Below are positions 3,821-57,864 of a DNA stretch of 64,000 nt, piece after piece. Made by a program: the position numbers and the translations under genes. This DNA is from Actinomycetota bacterium. Its GTDB lineage: Bacteria > Actinomycetota > Actinomycetes > Nanopelagicales > Nanopelagicaceae. The stretch lies in contig JAQBVO010000005.1 of assembly GCA_027728065.1 (NCBI GenBank), forward strand, positions 1-64,000, in the 5' to 3' direction. A model generated the notes under the pieces. It was not told the origin of the DNA, did not search any database, and worked only from the letters and a program-made list of their open reading frames with translations. The number at the start of each line of letters is the position of its first letter. The stretch's first letter is position 1.

Positions 3821-3993
3821 GCGACTATCGGGCAGTTGCAGTTGGCGCAGCGATTTGGCTGGGAGCCTTACTTCAAAGCGCAATCGCCCCCTGGCGCATC
3901 ACTATTGCAGCGATTGCGCTCACACTCTTCGCCCTAGTAAGCCGGAAGTTTCGCTTCAGCGTAATTATTACCGCACTTCTACTTGGCTCTACG

Positions 3994-7103: not shown

Positions 7104-7418
7104 GTGTACGCAATTGTTAAAGCTGGCGGCCGCCAGGAAAAGGTCGCAGTTGGTGACACAGTAGTCCTGGATCGTATCGACGCTGGGGTTGGCGCAACTG
7201 TCTCATTTCCTGCCCTGCTCCTAGTAGATGGCGCAACCGTGACTACCGATGCCGCCGCCCTTGCCACCATTAAAGTAACCGGCGAAGTTCTCGAAGAGAC
7301 AAAGGGCCCAAAGATCGACATTCTGCGCTACAAGAACAAGACAGGTCACCACCGGCGCCAGGGCTTTCGTGCAAAACTCACACGCGTAAAAATTACCGCT
7401 ATCAACGGCGTGAAGTAA
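7104..7418 (+). CDS. rplU: 50S ribosomal protein L21
   Basis: Component of the large ribosomal subunit. 104 residues, the normal L21 length. The opening [17 protein letters not shown] and the C-terminal [17 protein letters not shown] are diagnostic. Translation starts at GTG 7104 with GGAG seven bases upstream. rpmA follows after 13 bases, the usual pairing, and both are served by the TTGACC/TACTCT promoter upstream and the terminator after rpmA. Confidence 0.97.
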
Positions 7419-7431
7419 GGGAGAGCGATTT

Positions 7432-7686
7432 ATGGCAAGTAAAAAGGGTGTCTCATCGACACGTAACGGTCGCGATTCAAATCCACAGTACCTTGGAATC
7501 AAGCGCTTTGGTGGCCAGGAAGTAAATGCCGGCGAGATTTTAGTGCGCCAACGCGGAACACATTTTCACCCAGGCAAGAACGTTGGACGCGGTAAGGATG
7601 ACACTCTCTTTGCACTAGCTGCAGGGGCCGTTGAGTTTGGTCGCGCTCGCGGACGTCGTGTAGTGAATGTGGTTCCGGCAGCTTAA
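7432..7686 (+). CDS. rpmA: 50S ribosomal protein L27
   Basis: Large-subunit protein whose N-terminal tail reaches the peptidyl transferase centre. 84 residues. It begins [20 protein letters not shown] and contains [17 protein letters not shown], typical L27. The N-terminus has no Firmicutes-style cleavable extension. A GGGAGAG Shine-Dalgarno sequence precedes ATG 7432. It is the last gene of the rplU transcript, followed by a strong terminator. Confidence 0.97.
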
Positions 7687-7702
7687 TTTAGGTTTCTTAA
7701 AA

Positions 7703-7740
7703 AAAAGAGCGAGCCGCGAATCGTGGCTCGCTCTTTTATT
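7703..7740 (+). terminator. Intrinsic terminator after rpmA
   Basis: A 13-bp stem pairs 7703-7715 (AAAAGAGCGAGCC) with 7725-7737 (GGCTCGCTCTTTT) around a 9-base loop, ending in a T-rich tail. The A tract before and T tract after make it potentially bidirectional. It separates rplU-rpmA from obg. Confidence 0.9.
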
Positions 7741-7771
7741 GCAATGTTTATGAGTTAAGGGGGAGTGGAAG

Positions 7772-16704: not shown

Positions 16705-16717
16705 ATCTGTTCAAATT

Positions 16718-16774
16718 ATGAGATGTGCATCTCATGCCTTGACTCATGGCCATGGGCTACTGGAGGATATCCTC
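16718..16774 (+). promoter_or_regulatory. Cluster of three palindromes upstream of the ilvB leader peptide
   Basis: Three perfect inverted repeats lie within 57 bases: ATGAGATG-TG-CATCTCAT (16718-16735), CATGGCCATG (16745-16754), and GAGGATATCCTC (16763-16774). A TTGACT (16739-16744) sits between the first two and could be a -35 box, but no good -10 lies at normal spacing. The third palindrome contains the Shine-Dalgarno sequence of the leader peptide. They may be protein-binding operators or RNA hairpins; sequence alone does not decide. Confidence 0.5.
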
Positions 16775-16807
16775 ATGTCTCAAATAGTAGTTGTGGTGGT
16801 GATTTAA
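16775..16807 (+). CDS. ilvB attenuator leader peptide (MSQIVVVVVI)
   Basis: A 10-codon open frame reads MSQIVVVVVI and ends at TAA 16805-16807. It holds five consecutive Val codons and two Ile codons and no Leu codon, matching the products of the downstream enzymes. GGAGG lies about seven bases before its ATG. It is followed three bases later by a stable hairpin and then an intrinsic terminator. This is the classical layout for ribosome-mediated attenuation, in which stalling at Val or Ile codons when those charged tRNAs are scarce lets transcription reach ilvB. Confidence 0.9.
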   Translation: MSQIVVVVVI

Positions 16808-16809
16808 AG

Positions 16810-16838
16810 GCGCGTGATCTAGCAATTCGATCGCGCGC
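16810..16838 (+). other. Leader hairpin of the ilvB attenuator
   Basis: GCGCGTGATC (16810-16819) pairs with GATCGCGCGC (16829-16838) over 10 bp with one G-U pair and a 9-base loop. It starts three bases after the leader stop codon, so a ribosome on the leader peptide would cover or disrupt it. It probably acts as the pause/protector hairpin; I could not identify the competing antiterminator pairing with confidence. Confidence 0.7.
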
Positions 16839-16840
16839 TG

Positions 16841-16866
16841 CCCTCAGTTAACCTGAGGGTTTTTTC
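16841..16866 (+). terminator. Attenuator terminator of ilvB
   Basis: CCCTCAG (16841-16847) pairs with CTGAGGG (16853-16859) around a 5-base loop, followed by six T residues (16860-16865). It lies between the leader peptide and ilvB, so it is read as the conditional terminator of the attenuator rather than the end of ilvD. Confidence 0.9.
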
Positions 16867-16904
16867 ATTTAATCACAGGATAAGAGTCAAGGAGGTATAT
16901 GCAC

Positions 16905-26884: not shown

Positions 26885-26904
26885 TTTCAGCAGGTGTGCT
26901 CAGG

Positions 26905-26910
26905 TAGGAT
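26905..26910 (+). promoter_or_regulatory. -10 element of the rpsB-tsf transcript
   Basis: TAGGAT, preceded by GTGTGCTCAGG, begins a 220-base non-coding stretch. No good TTGAC-like -35 sits at standard spacing, so this rests on the hexamer alone. Confidence 0.45.
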
Positions 26911-26934
26911 GTGGCCTGCACCATTGAAGTAATT

Positions 26935-27078
26935 CAGTGGTGACATCTCAGCACTGCCTTGGCTCTTGCGAGCCAGGTGAATCATCTCGGTCCGTTTATT
27001 CGGTCGATGAATCTCAGTGCGACGGGCCTGACAAATGTTTGGCCATAAACCGAGCGGGTTTTATTCTGCTACGCAGAA
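26935..27078 (+). promoter_or_regulatory. Structured 5' leader of rpsB
   Basis: The 220-base gap before rpsB contains consecutive hairpins. CAGTG-G-TGA pairs with TCA-G-CACTG (26935-26956). CTTGGCTC pairs with GAGCCAGG (26958-26977). TTCTGC pairs with GCAGAA (27064-27078), ending about 10 bases before the Shine-Dalgarno sequence GGAG. A weak AAACC/GGTTT stem with a T run lies just upstream of the last one. Leaders before rpsB are known to mediate S2 autoregulation in other bacteria; whether this one does is inference. No coding frame was seen. Confidence 0.6.
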
Positions 27079-27104
27079 AAAACTCATGAAGGAGTCAACC
27101 TGCC

Positions 27105-36904: not shown

Positions 36905-37737
36905 ACACAAAGATTAAAGATGCAACAATCCCAACGATTGCATTTCAAGCCCGCCTATCACGCTGGTTTGGCCGCAATCTATTGCGTATCTATATGATCT
37001 TTGGTTTTACATACCTGTTCATCCCAGTTGCCTACACATTTGCATTCTCCTTTAACGATTCGGGAAAGAGCAACTTAATCTGGAAGGGCTTCACTTTAGA
37101 TAATTGGCAGAATCCATGTGGTGCACCACAGATATGTGATGCGCTAGGTAACTCCATCAAGATCGGTGCCCTTGCCACGATTTTCTCAACGATTCTCGGC
37201 ACGCTTATCGCATTTGCAATCGGACGTTATCAATTTAGAGGGCGCTCAAGCTCTAACTTGCTGATCTTTTTACCAATGGCTACCCCTGAAATTGTCTTAG
37301 GGGCATCACTACTCTCACTCTTTTTAGTCTTTAAAATCAATCCAGGTTTCTGGCCGACTGTCATCGCACACGTAGTGTTCTGTATATCTTTTGTTGTTGT
37401 TACTGTTAAGGCTCGCATCGCATCTCTTGATCCACGCCTTGAACAAGTGGCGATGGATCTCTATGCCAACGAACTCGAAACCTTTCGCAGAGTTACCCTG
37501 CCATTAGTTGCACCCGGAATTGTAGGGGCAGCTCTGCTGGCATTCTCGCTATCTTTCGATGATTTTATTATTACCAACTTTAATTCAGGGACATTGATTA
37601 CCTTCCCGAAGTTTGTCTATGTAGCAGCCGCCCGCGGCATCCCAGCCCAGGCCAATGTCATCGGTTCAGCGATGTTTTTCTTAGCCTTAGCACTTGTTAT
37701 AGCTGGTCAAATAGTCAATCGTAAAAAAACACGGTAG
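36901..37737 (+). CDS. potC: Polyamine ABC transporter permease (PotC type)
   Basis: Second membrane subunit, 278 residues with about six helices. The EAA loop is EQVAMDLYANELETFRRVTL, and SFDDFIITNFNSG in the last third is typical of PotC/PotI. It overlaps potB (ATGA). It ends the transporter set; a 132-base structured gap separates it from the FAD oxidoreductase, so the downstream genes may be controlled separately. Confidence 0.92.
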   Translation: MNTKIKDATIPTIAFQARLSRWFGRNLLRIYMIFGFTYLFIPVAYTFAFSFNDSGKSNLIWKGFTLDNWQNPCGAPQICDALGNSIKIGALATIFSTILGTLIAFAIGRYQFRGRSSSNLLIFLPMATPEIVLGASLLSLFLVFKINPGFWPTVIAHVVFCISFVVVTVKARIASLDPRLEQVAMDLYANELETFRRVTLPLVAPGIVGAALLAFSLSFDDFIITNFNSGTLITFPKFVYVAAARGIPAQANVIGSAMFFLALALVIAGQIVNRKKTR

Positions 37738-37869
37738 TCTGACCTACCTATCCATAACGAAACACAGGTTGTTATAGAAAGCTTGCGTTGTGGGGTTAGG
37801 TTCCGGAGGACCCGGGCCAACTACGAGTTGTGATTGAAGGGGTGATTCCGGTTCAGGCCGGATAGCGCG
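37738..37869 (+). promoter_or_regulatory. Structured leader/intergenic region before the FAD oxidoreductase, possible cis-regulatory RNA
   Basis: This 132-base gap has no coding frame and three consecutive potential hairpins. GGTTC pairs with GGACC around CGGA (37799-37812). CAAC pairs with GTTG around TACGA (37818-37830). TCCGG pairs exactly with CCGGA around TTCAGG (37847-37862). The last ends seven bases before the ATG and would hide the only GGA near the start codon. An earlier ATAAC/GTTAT pair (near 37756-37776) is also possible. I could not match it to a riboswitch class I know. Confidence 0.45.
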
Positions 37870-39282
37870 ATGGAGACCATCGACCCTTCCATACTCAGAC
37901 ATCTCTCACATATGCAGCCGGCTTTGTACTGGCTCGATGAAGATCCCCTTGAGCCACTGCCGCATCCGACATTAATCGGAGATGTCAGCACTGATCTCTG
38001 TATCGTCGGAGCCGGCTACACCGGTTTGTGGACCGCCCTGCTTGCTAAAGAGCAAAATCCGGGGCGCGAAGTAATTGTGGTTGAACAGTGGGAGACCGGT
38101 GCGGGGGCATCTGGTCGAAACGGTGGTTTCTGTAGCTACTCACTCACCCATGGATTTATGAATGGATACAGCCGCTTTAAGGACGAGATGGCAATTATCG
38201 AGGCCATGGGGCGCGAAAATCTCGATGGGATTGAGTCAACCATAAAGAGGTATGGAATCGAATGTGACTTTGAATGGAATGGAGAGCTTCGAATCGCAGT
38301 TGCCGATTGGCAGATGGAGTCGATAGTTCACGAGGCAAATCTTCGGAACTCTTTTGGTGACCATGTTGAGGTATTAACCGCGGCCCAAGTGCAGGCACGA
38401 GTGAAATCACCGATTTATAAAGGTGCGTTATGGGATCCAGATGGCACCGCCTTAGTTGATCCCGTGCGTTTAGTTTGGGGACTTGAGAAGGCTTGTATAA
38501 AACTAGGTGTAAAGATCTATGAGAATACGCAAGTTCAGTGGCTAGAGTCAACTAACGCAGGAATGATTGTTCATACCTCATATGGAAATGTGTATGCCCA
38601 GAAAACCGCGCTCGCAACTAATATATTTAAATCATTGATACGAAGTGCGCATAAATATGTCATTCCAGTTTATGATTTTCAACTTGTTACTGAGCCACTA
38701 ACACCCCAGCAGCTCGAATCTATAGGTTGGAAAGATCGCGAAGGCCTATCCGATGCCGGCAATCAGTTCCACTACTATCGAATGACAAAAGACAATGAGA
38801 TTTTATGGGGAGGATATGATGCAATCTATAATTTTCGCGGCAAGGTACGGCAAGAGTACGAAACCGATGCCAAAACATACGCCCATTTAGCCAAAGCTTT
38901 CTTAGAAACCTTTCCACAATTGAAGGGAATAAAGTTCACACATGGTTGGGGCGGGGCCATCGATACTTGCTCGCGTTTTTCACCGTTTTGGGGAACAGCT
39001 TATGGTGGTCGAGTTGCATACGTTATGGGCTATACAGGTTTGGGTGTGGGCCCAACACGCTTTGGCGCACAGGTAATGCTCGATCTTCTAGAGGGTCTGG
39101 ATAATCAGAGAACGCGCCTTACGATGGTTCGCAAAAAGCCTTGGCCATTTCCTCCTGAGCCATTTCGTTTTTTCTTTATTCGTCTGACGCAATGGTCTAT
39201 TAATAGGGCCGATGAAAAGCAGGGCAAGCGCAATTTATGGCTGCGCCTACTCGATTCATTAGGTCTGGGTTTCGATTCCTAA
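37870..39282 (+). CDS. FAD-dependent oxidoreductase, DAO/PuuB-like amine oxidase
   Basis: 470 residues of the D-amino-acid-oxidase superfamily. The FAD motif is CIVGAGYTGLWTALLAKE (about 44-61) with the acidic end VVVEQ, and GAGASGRNGGFCSYSLTHG is typical of the PuuB/OrdL group. The C-terminal HGWGGAIDTCSRFSPFWG and MGYTGLGVGPTRF segments also belong to it. PuuB oxidises gamma-glutamylputrescine, but no PuuA-like ligase is present here, so the substrate may be free putrescine, another polyamine or an amino acid derivative. No Shine-Dalgarno sequence is free before ATG 37870; a hairpin covers the nearest GGA. Confidence 0.82.
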   Translation: METIDPSILRHLSHMQPALYWLDEDPLEPLPHPTLIGDVSTDLCIVGAGYTGLWTALLAKEQNPGREVIVVEQWETGAGASGRNGGFCSYSLTHGFMNGYSRFKDEMAIIEAMGRENLDGIESTIKRYGIECDFEWNGELRIAVADWQMESIVHEANLRNSFGDHVEVLTAAQVQARVKSPIYKGALWDPDGTALVDPVRLVWGLEKACIKLGVKIYENTQVQWLESTNAGMIVHTSYGNVYAQKTALATNIFKSLIRSAHKYVIPVYDFQLVTEPLTPQQLESIGWKDREGLSDAGNQFHYYRMTKDNEILWGGYDAIYNFRGKVRQEYETDAKTYAHLAKAFLETFPQLKGIKFTHGWGGAIDTCSRFSPFWGTAYGGRVAYVMGYTGLGVGPTRFGAQVMLDLLEGLDNQRTRLTMVRKKPWPFPPEPFRFFFIRLTQWSINRADEKQGKRNLWLRLLDSLGLGFDS

Positions 39283-53213: not shown

Positions 53214-53220
53214 ATAATAC

Positions 53221-53256
53221 CTACCCACCGACAGGATCAATGGTCCTCGGTAGTGG
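53221..53256 (+). other. Hairpin after rpsO
   Basis: ACCG (53227-53230) plus AGGA (53233-53236) pair with TCCT (53244-53247) plus CGGT (53248-53251), with a two-base bulge. Outer pairs such as CCAC with GTGG are possible. It lies just after the rpsO stop and is followed only by three T, so it is more likely a processing or stabilising element than a full terminator. Confidence 0.4.
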
Positions 53257-53337
53257 TTTCCGCAAGGGCCTTTTAAAGGTGTGCGTGAACTTCGATCGGA
53301 GATTCATTGTTAGTTCTCGGTGTGGTAGCCCGAAATC

Positions 53338-53361
53338 GAGATAGTTGTTCTCAACTATCTC
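53338..53361 (+). promoter_or_regulatory. Perfect 10-bp hairpin in the pnp leader
   Basis: GAGATAGTTG (53338-53347) pairs perfectly with CAACTATCTC (53352-53361) around the loop TTCT. It has no T tail and ends 12 bases before the AGAGGAGGA of pnp. In E. coli an RNase III-cleaved hairpin at the same place lets PNPase repress its own synthesis; the same role is plausible here. Confidence 0.75.
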
Positions 53362-57603: not shown

Positions 57604-57606
57604 AAT

Positions 57607-57864
57607 ATGTCAAGTAGAGAGATAATAATGTATAGCGCCGATTGGTGTGGCGATTGCATCCGATCAAAGCGTCTAATGGATGAGCTAAATGTCGCCTATA
57701 CAATCATCAATGTCGATGCTGATACTGCAGCTTCAGAAAAAGTTATTAAAATAAATGGTGGCTTGAGATCTATTCCAGTAATCGTATTTGCAGATGGTTC
57801 ACATCTAACAGAGCCTTCAGATATTGATTTGAAGGCAAAATTGACATCCCTTGGGATTATTTAA
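57607..57864 (+). CDS. Small glutaredoxin/mycoredoxin-like thiol reductase
   Basis: Thioredoxin-fold protein of 85 residues. It begins with IIMYSADWCGDCIRSKRLMD, so the redox pair is Cys14-Gly-Asp-Cys17; IPVIVFADGSHL supplies the cis-Pro and glutathione/mycothiol-side loop. Size and form resemble mycoredoxin and NrdH, but the CGDC centre differs from the usual CGYC or CVQC. It begins three bases after dapB. Its stop overlaps the stop of azlD on the other strand by three bases. Confidence 0.85.
   Translation: MSSREIIMYSADWCGDCIRSKRLMDELNVAYTIINVDADTAASEKVIKINGGLRSIPVIVFADGSHLTEPSDIDLKAKLTSLGII

Follow-up and report, generated by a model that had tools for sequence, protein, structure and literature searches.

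A conserved structured leader RNA, candidate translational riboswitch, upstream of an FAD oxidase gene in acI freshwater Actinobacteria

The 132-nt gap between a potC-like gene and the gene for an FAD oxidase almost certainly holds a real, family-specific structured cis-regulatory leader RNA that is absent from Rfam 15, as judged by comparison of homologous loci. Together with folding predictions, this comparison leads us to read the RNA as a new orphan leader that would mask the ribosome site and is probably a translational riboswitch, a reading to which we assign a probability of about 0.55. In the window (the whole stretch of 64,000 nucleotides that was analyzed), the stop codon of the potC-like gene ends at 37737 and the oxidase ATG is at 37870, so the gap at 37738-37869 is exactly 132 nt, as the first-pass annotation had stated. 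The same annotation had called the gap unusually long, and indeed it ranks sixth largest of 54 in the window, where the median gap is 7 nt. The five longer gaps (7322-7771, 26885-27104, 16705-16898, 3821-3993, and 57604-57860) have no Rfam match. Elsewhere in the window, an Actino-pnp RNA (RF01688) scores above the gathering threshold at 53239-53308 and explains most of the 131-nt gap at 53214-53344. Single-sequence folding of the 132-nt gap is modestly better than that of shuffled sequences (z of -2.06; 3 of 200 shuffles were equally good); because folding of one sequence would not settle the question, decisive weight is placed on comparative data. The features of the RNA and its gene are as follows.

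37735..37740, forward strand: TAGTCT, a weak -10-like hexamer that overlaps the potC stop; may be the promoter of the leader transcript (hexamer count before P1)
37752..37793, forward strand: P1/P2 hairpin (compensatory changes; top mutual-information pairs)
37752-37759 with 37786-37793, forward strand: P1, 8 bp (compensatory changes in 6 of 8 pairs)
37760-37764, forward strand: 5-nt bulge on the 5' side, between P1 and P2 (partly conserved)
37765-37770 with 37780-37785, forward strand: P2, 6 bp, followed by a variable loop (compensatory changes in 6 of 6 pairs)
37795..37821, forward strand: P3 hairpin, made of lower stem P3a, a small bulge, and P3b (P3a covaries, P3b is invariant)
37795-37800 with 37817-37821, forward strand: P3a, a five-position stem (covariation)
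37802-37816, forward strand: P3b, UCCGG-AGGAC-CCGGG (essentially invariant)
37836..37844, forward strand: Shine-Dalgarno (SD)-like GAAGGGGTG, with SD GAAGGGG, after a variable linker (sequence; predicted P6 pairing)
37847..37862, forward strand: P4 hairpin TCCGG/CCGGA, between the SD and the start codon (conserved in 87 of 87 distinct leaders)
37868..37882, forward strand: P5 start-codon hairpin CGATGG-AGA-CCATCG, containing the ATG (pairs kept; codon bias)
37883..37889, forward strand: ACCCTTC, from Asp5-Pro6, predicted SD partner in P6 (codon bias; recoding test)
37870..39282, forward strand: the regulated gene, a DAO-family FAD oxidase (Pfam DAO; polyamine neighbors)

The consecutive hairpins that had been noted in the gap correspond to P1/P2, P3, and P4, and a further one, P5, reaches into the gene. 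The TCCGG/CCGGA stem was correctly described as ending seven bases before the ATG; it was wrongly described as covering the only SD-like bases, since GAAGGGGTG lies upstream of P4. The P3a stem varies among leaders (GTAGG/CCAAC, GTTG/CAAC, GTGG/CCAC, GTGGG/CCCAC, and GGCGTA/ATGCC), and the core UCCGGAGGACCCGRG, a candidate binding core, is fixed in every distinct leader, across at least 10 genera. Across the 87 distinct leaders, P4 shows one double change plus a covarying loop-closing pair, and leaders that lack P1-P3 still keep P4, with other stem bases. All six pairs of P5, formed by CGAUGG with codons 3-5, are present in 75 of 90 leaders, and in the predicted P6 the ACCC of codons 5-6 can pair with the GGGU of the SD. 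Of 73 distinct regions upstream of the RNA, 55 have a -10-like hexamer (TAnnnT) no more than 25 nt before P1, against a shuffled expectation of 16; these hexamers are mostly 8-10 nt before P1, and some overlap stop codons, so the excess is partly trivial. Their positions suggest that a transcript may start with the RNA just before P1, even inside the operon.

Among close relatives found by DNA search, orthologous leaders are near-identical over the 3' 75 nt and variable in the 5' hairpin. In a structure-free MAFFT alignment, from which a covariance model was built, five pairs had compensatory changes, with a covariation score that no shuffle reached. With divergent members included, 14 pairs show double changes, and the double-change cells number 205; shuffles give 57.9, and sliding the pairing gives no more than 48. 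The helices with compensatory changes are P1, P2, P3a, and, in part, P4. When mutual information was scanned over all columns of an alignment re-segmented by hand, P1, P2, P3a, and one P4 pair likewise came near the top, and no further convincing covarying helix or pseudoknot emerged. Because model-fitted alignments lean toward structure and the leader sequences are related (their effective number is about 26), we give most weight to the MAFFT result, the mutual-information scan, and the slid controls. In P1/P2, G·U cells greatly outnumber A·C cells (148 versus 25), which identifies the mRNA strand as the functional strand. P3b is almost invariant and is therefore beyond the reach of covariation. 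Scans against Rfam 15 returned nothing credible for the 132-nt stretch at gathering or relaxed thresholds, and seven divergent homologous loci had no match at gathering thresholds. The first-pass annotation had read the gap as a structured RNA leader matching no riboswitch class it knew, had suggested that it might serve polyamine, agmatine, or flavin supply, and had named a lack of covariation among homologs, an Rfam match, or a degraded gene remnant as findings that would speak against it. Compensatory pairs were found, and neither an Rfam match nor a gene remnant was; its reading as a cis-acting leader stands, and the part in which the last stem covers the SD does not.

About 100 genomes, which belong to at least 10 genera of a single family (the acI freshwater Actinobacteria), carry the RNA. 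At the genus level the covariance model matched 65 of 135 genomes; at the order level it matched 113 of 251, spread over 10 genera, and these include about a dozen weakest matches that are leaders keeping only the SD and P4. Scanning GTDB species contigs for the core plus the SD gave 92 stretches; 69 of the 70 stretches tested (80 of the 92 were listed) carry the RNA, in actinobacterial records that are mostly from fresh water, and the complete genomes IMCC19121 and IMCC26077 are among the carriers. A pattern match in Streptomyces (L129) was not matched by the covariance model, and viral contigs had no match to the RNA. Covariance searches at the class and phylum levels found nothing beyond the family except one 31.6-bit match, which precedes a cold-shock gene in a large genome, does not have the core, and was judged a chance hit. 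Nine candidates were scored per large genome, so absence from large genomes rests mainly on the contig pattern scan. Some oxidase genes of the same family are entirely without the RNA, so it can be dispensed with, as a regulatory element would be expected to be. Both the oxidase and the RNA are missing from several complete genomes of the window's genus, and this patchy presence could mark ecotypes. Many metagenome contigs start or stop inside the RNA (L100, L104, L139, L143, and L164), and in some genomes it is split over two contigs (G007:C50/C73 and G028:C44/C103), probably because a near-identical stretch in coexisting species breaks the assembly.

Wherever the locus is long enough to show it, the gene directly downstream of the RNA is the same oxidase gene. 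In several genera this gene lies outside the pot operon, behind unrelated genes, and the RNA is still attached to it, which identifies the RNA as an oxidase leader rather than a potC element. The permease and an aminobutyraldehyde dehydrogenase were found in 16 of 16 genomes sampled, most of them with a displaced oxidase. In the window, the neighbors of the oxidase are pot genes, an aminobutyraldehyde dehydrogenase gene, and an agmatinase-like gene, and in other orders potC or the dehydrogenase gene immediately precedes oxidase orthologs of about 55% identity. From these neighbors, here and in other orders, the oxidase is predicted to be probably polyamine catabolic, and the RNA would be tied to polyamine metabolism indirectly, through the neighbors of its gene. 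Oxidase orthologs examined outside the family do not carry the leader. Within the family, oxidases share an N-terminal stretch, M-x-x-I-D-P-x-x-L (37870-37905 in the window, and orthologs), where outside orthologs do not align; this stretch overlaps the RNA structure, yet it is also present in copies that have no RNA. The oxidase frame seems broken at two loci (L062 and L149, two tblastn pieces each) and a third (L153) has a different N terminus, due to assembly error or decay.

Several observations point to translation initiation as the step that is controlled. At codon 4, Ile is encoded by ATC in 80 of 84 genes, compared with 564 of 1,913 Ile codons in the remainder of these genes; at codon 5, Asp is encoded by GAC in 72 of 81, compared with 407 of 2,027 in the remainder. 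The genes in these counts are not independent samples, and a few RNA-less oxidase genes of the same family also read ATC GAC at these codons. The stretch from the SD to codon 10 is more stable than synonymous recodings drawn from the gene's own codon usage, with a median z of -2.52 and 90% of values below -1. Among 90 intact leaders, the mean predicted unpaired probability is 0.22 for the SD and 0.03 for the AUG. The predicted masking comes from codons 5-6 and the start-codon hairpin, not from P4. It is well supported that selection on codons 4-6 holds the SD and AUG in structure, which argues for a masked resting state, and action at translation initiation is likely. Leaders without P1-P3 have a higher predicted unpaired probability at the SD (0.42-0.62), and most of these leaders carry AGAGGUG where intact leaders have AGGGGUG; a masked SD in intact leaders and a more open one after loss of P1-P3 would fit an upstream module that helps to open the site, with its loss compensated. 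Two alternative pairings were rejected. The most obvious switch helix, between CCGGAGGACCC and GGGGUGAuuCCGG, is conserved in sequence, but the native fold is more favorable for 34 of 35 sequences, with a mean difference of about 8 kcal/mol. The P1 3' strand could also pair in the window with AUAGCGC near the start, an option that, judged by eye, is lost in other genera. No well-supported alternative fold emerged, which counts against the riboswitch reading.

We therefore envisage a new structured RNA that acts in cis, has two putative modules, and spans about 37751-37889, covering the 5' leader of the oxidase mRNA and its first codons. The 5' module, P1/P2 plus P3 with its fixed core, resembles a sensor; the second, comprising the SD, P4, the start-codon hairpin P5, and the pairing of the SD with codons 5-6, would control translation. 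In the proposed resting state the SD and AUG are masked, and a small metabolite, perhaps of the polyamine-catabolic route, would bind and shift the fold so that the ribosome can start. Such ligand-driven opening would switch on production of a catabolic enzyme. Because substrates usually induce the genes for their own breakdown, a metabolite of the pathway is the trigger we would expect. An RNA found with a single gene class in a single family offers few clues to its ligand, and a polyamine-pathway metabolite is a tentative best guess. The fully specified version is slightly more doubtful still: a new riboswitch class, specific to acI freshwater Actinobacteria, that would turn translation on when it binds a polyamine-catabolic metabolite (e.g., putrescine, spermidine, or an aminoaldehyde) and whose expression platform includes the first six codons.

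Other explanations were weighed against the riboswitch reading. The oxidase or some other protein might bind the invariant P3 core and control translation autoregulatorily, with no metabolite being sensed; a single gene is served, and the compact invariant loop AGGAC would suit a protein site. On the other hand, the gene encodes a metabolic enzyme rather than a nucleic-acid-binding protein, and a separate P1/P2 stem with a partly conserved bulge exceeds what a simple protein site needs, so we regard such a leader as unlikely, though the strongest of the alternatives. A static structure that sets a low basal rate or protects the 5' end, or an RNA thermometer, would likewise act without a ligand. 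Masking of the SD and AUG in the predicted fold agrees with this idea, as does the dispensability of the leader in some lineages. Tuning, stability, or melting needs no invariant sequence core, however, and RNA thermometers usually conserve structure rather than sequence; no thermometer family in Rfam matched, and we consider this explanation less probable than a protein-binding leader.

Two further possibilities fared much worse in the comparative data. One is that a short upstream frame, MGLGSGGPGPTTSSD, acts as a leader peptide or attenuator; in its favor, 15 codons are open in many leaders from the genus of the window. The frame is not conserved, however: in other lineages, 38 leaders have a stop after two codons and further leaders have the frame shifted, with the nucleotide core fixed, and these frame data contradict an attenuator and make it very improbable. 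Finally, chance hairpins or a degraded gene remnant would agree with the only modestly unusual folding of the single sequence, but covariation, the G·U bias of the mRNA strand, and a core fixed across genera already refute them, and their probability is close to nil.

To our knowledge, little is known about how streamlined acI genomes regulate the use of polyamines and other nitrogen-rich compounds. The acI Actinobacteria dominate most lakes and have been described as users of such compounds (PMC5301498, PMC5574706); an RNA devoted to what is probably the oxidative step would offer a direct handle on their polyamine regulation. The acI genome paper searched only for TPP, FMN, and cobalamin-type riboswitch models (PMC5301498). 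A keyword search of the main texts of systematic motif papers, a set that leaves aside the 2017 collection of 224 motifs, gave no mention of the oxidase or the carrier genera.

The closest parallels are orphan riboswitch candidates from intergenic searches (PMC2864571, PMC8632094, PMC11109978): they too are conserved structured cis leaders of metabolic genes for which SD sequestration was proposed, whereas the oxidase RNA is confined to acI Actinobacteria and reaches into codons 3-6. The potC RNA motif (RF01751), listed as marine only (PMC2864571), is similar in name and in its association with polyamine transport genes; the RNA described here belongs to the oxidase, not to potC, and the 132-nt stretch had no match to that motif even at E values up to 10. 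Guanidine riboswitches (ykkC families) are brought to mind by the idea of a nitrogen-rich ligand and by the agmatinase-family gene nearby, but their architecture differs, and the guanidine-I, -II, -III, and -IV models had no match in the Rfam scans. The spermidine riboswitch, a SAM-I variant that acts by transcription termination on polyamine biosynthesis genes, shares a polyamine-related gene context (PMC10853860). In contrast, the oxidase RNA has no SAM-family match in the Rfam scans and thus no sign of a SAM-I fold, no terminator was seen, and its gene is catabolic; if it binds a polyamine, its aptamer would be unrelated to that of the spermidine riboswitch (PMC10853860). Like leaders that mask the start codon and SD in general, the oxidase RNA is predicted to hold both in structure. 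Unlike them, it would use codons 3-6 of its own gene for the masking, visible as synonymous codon bias, and with this bias at codons 4-6 it illustrates clearly how a regulatory RNA can continue into the coding sequence.
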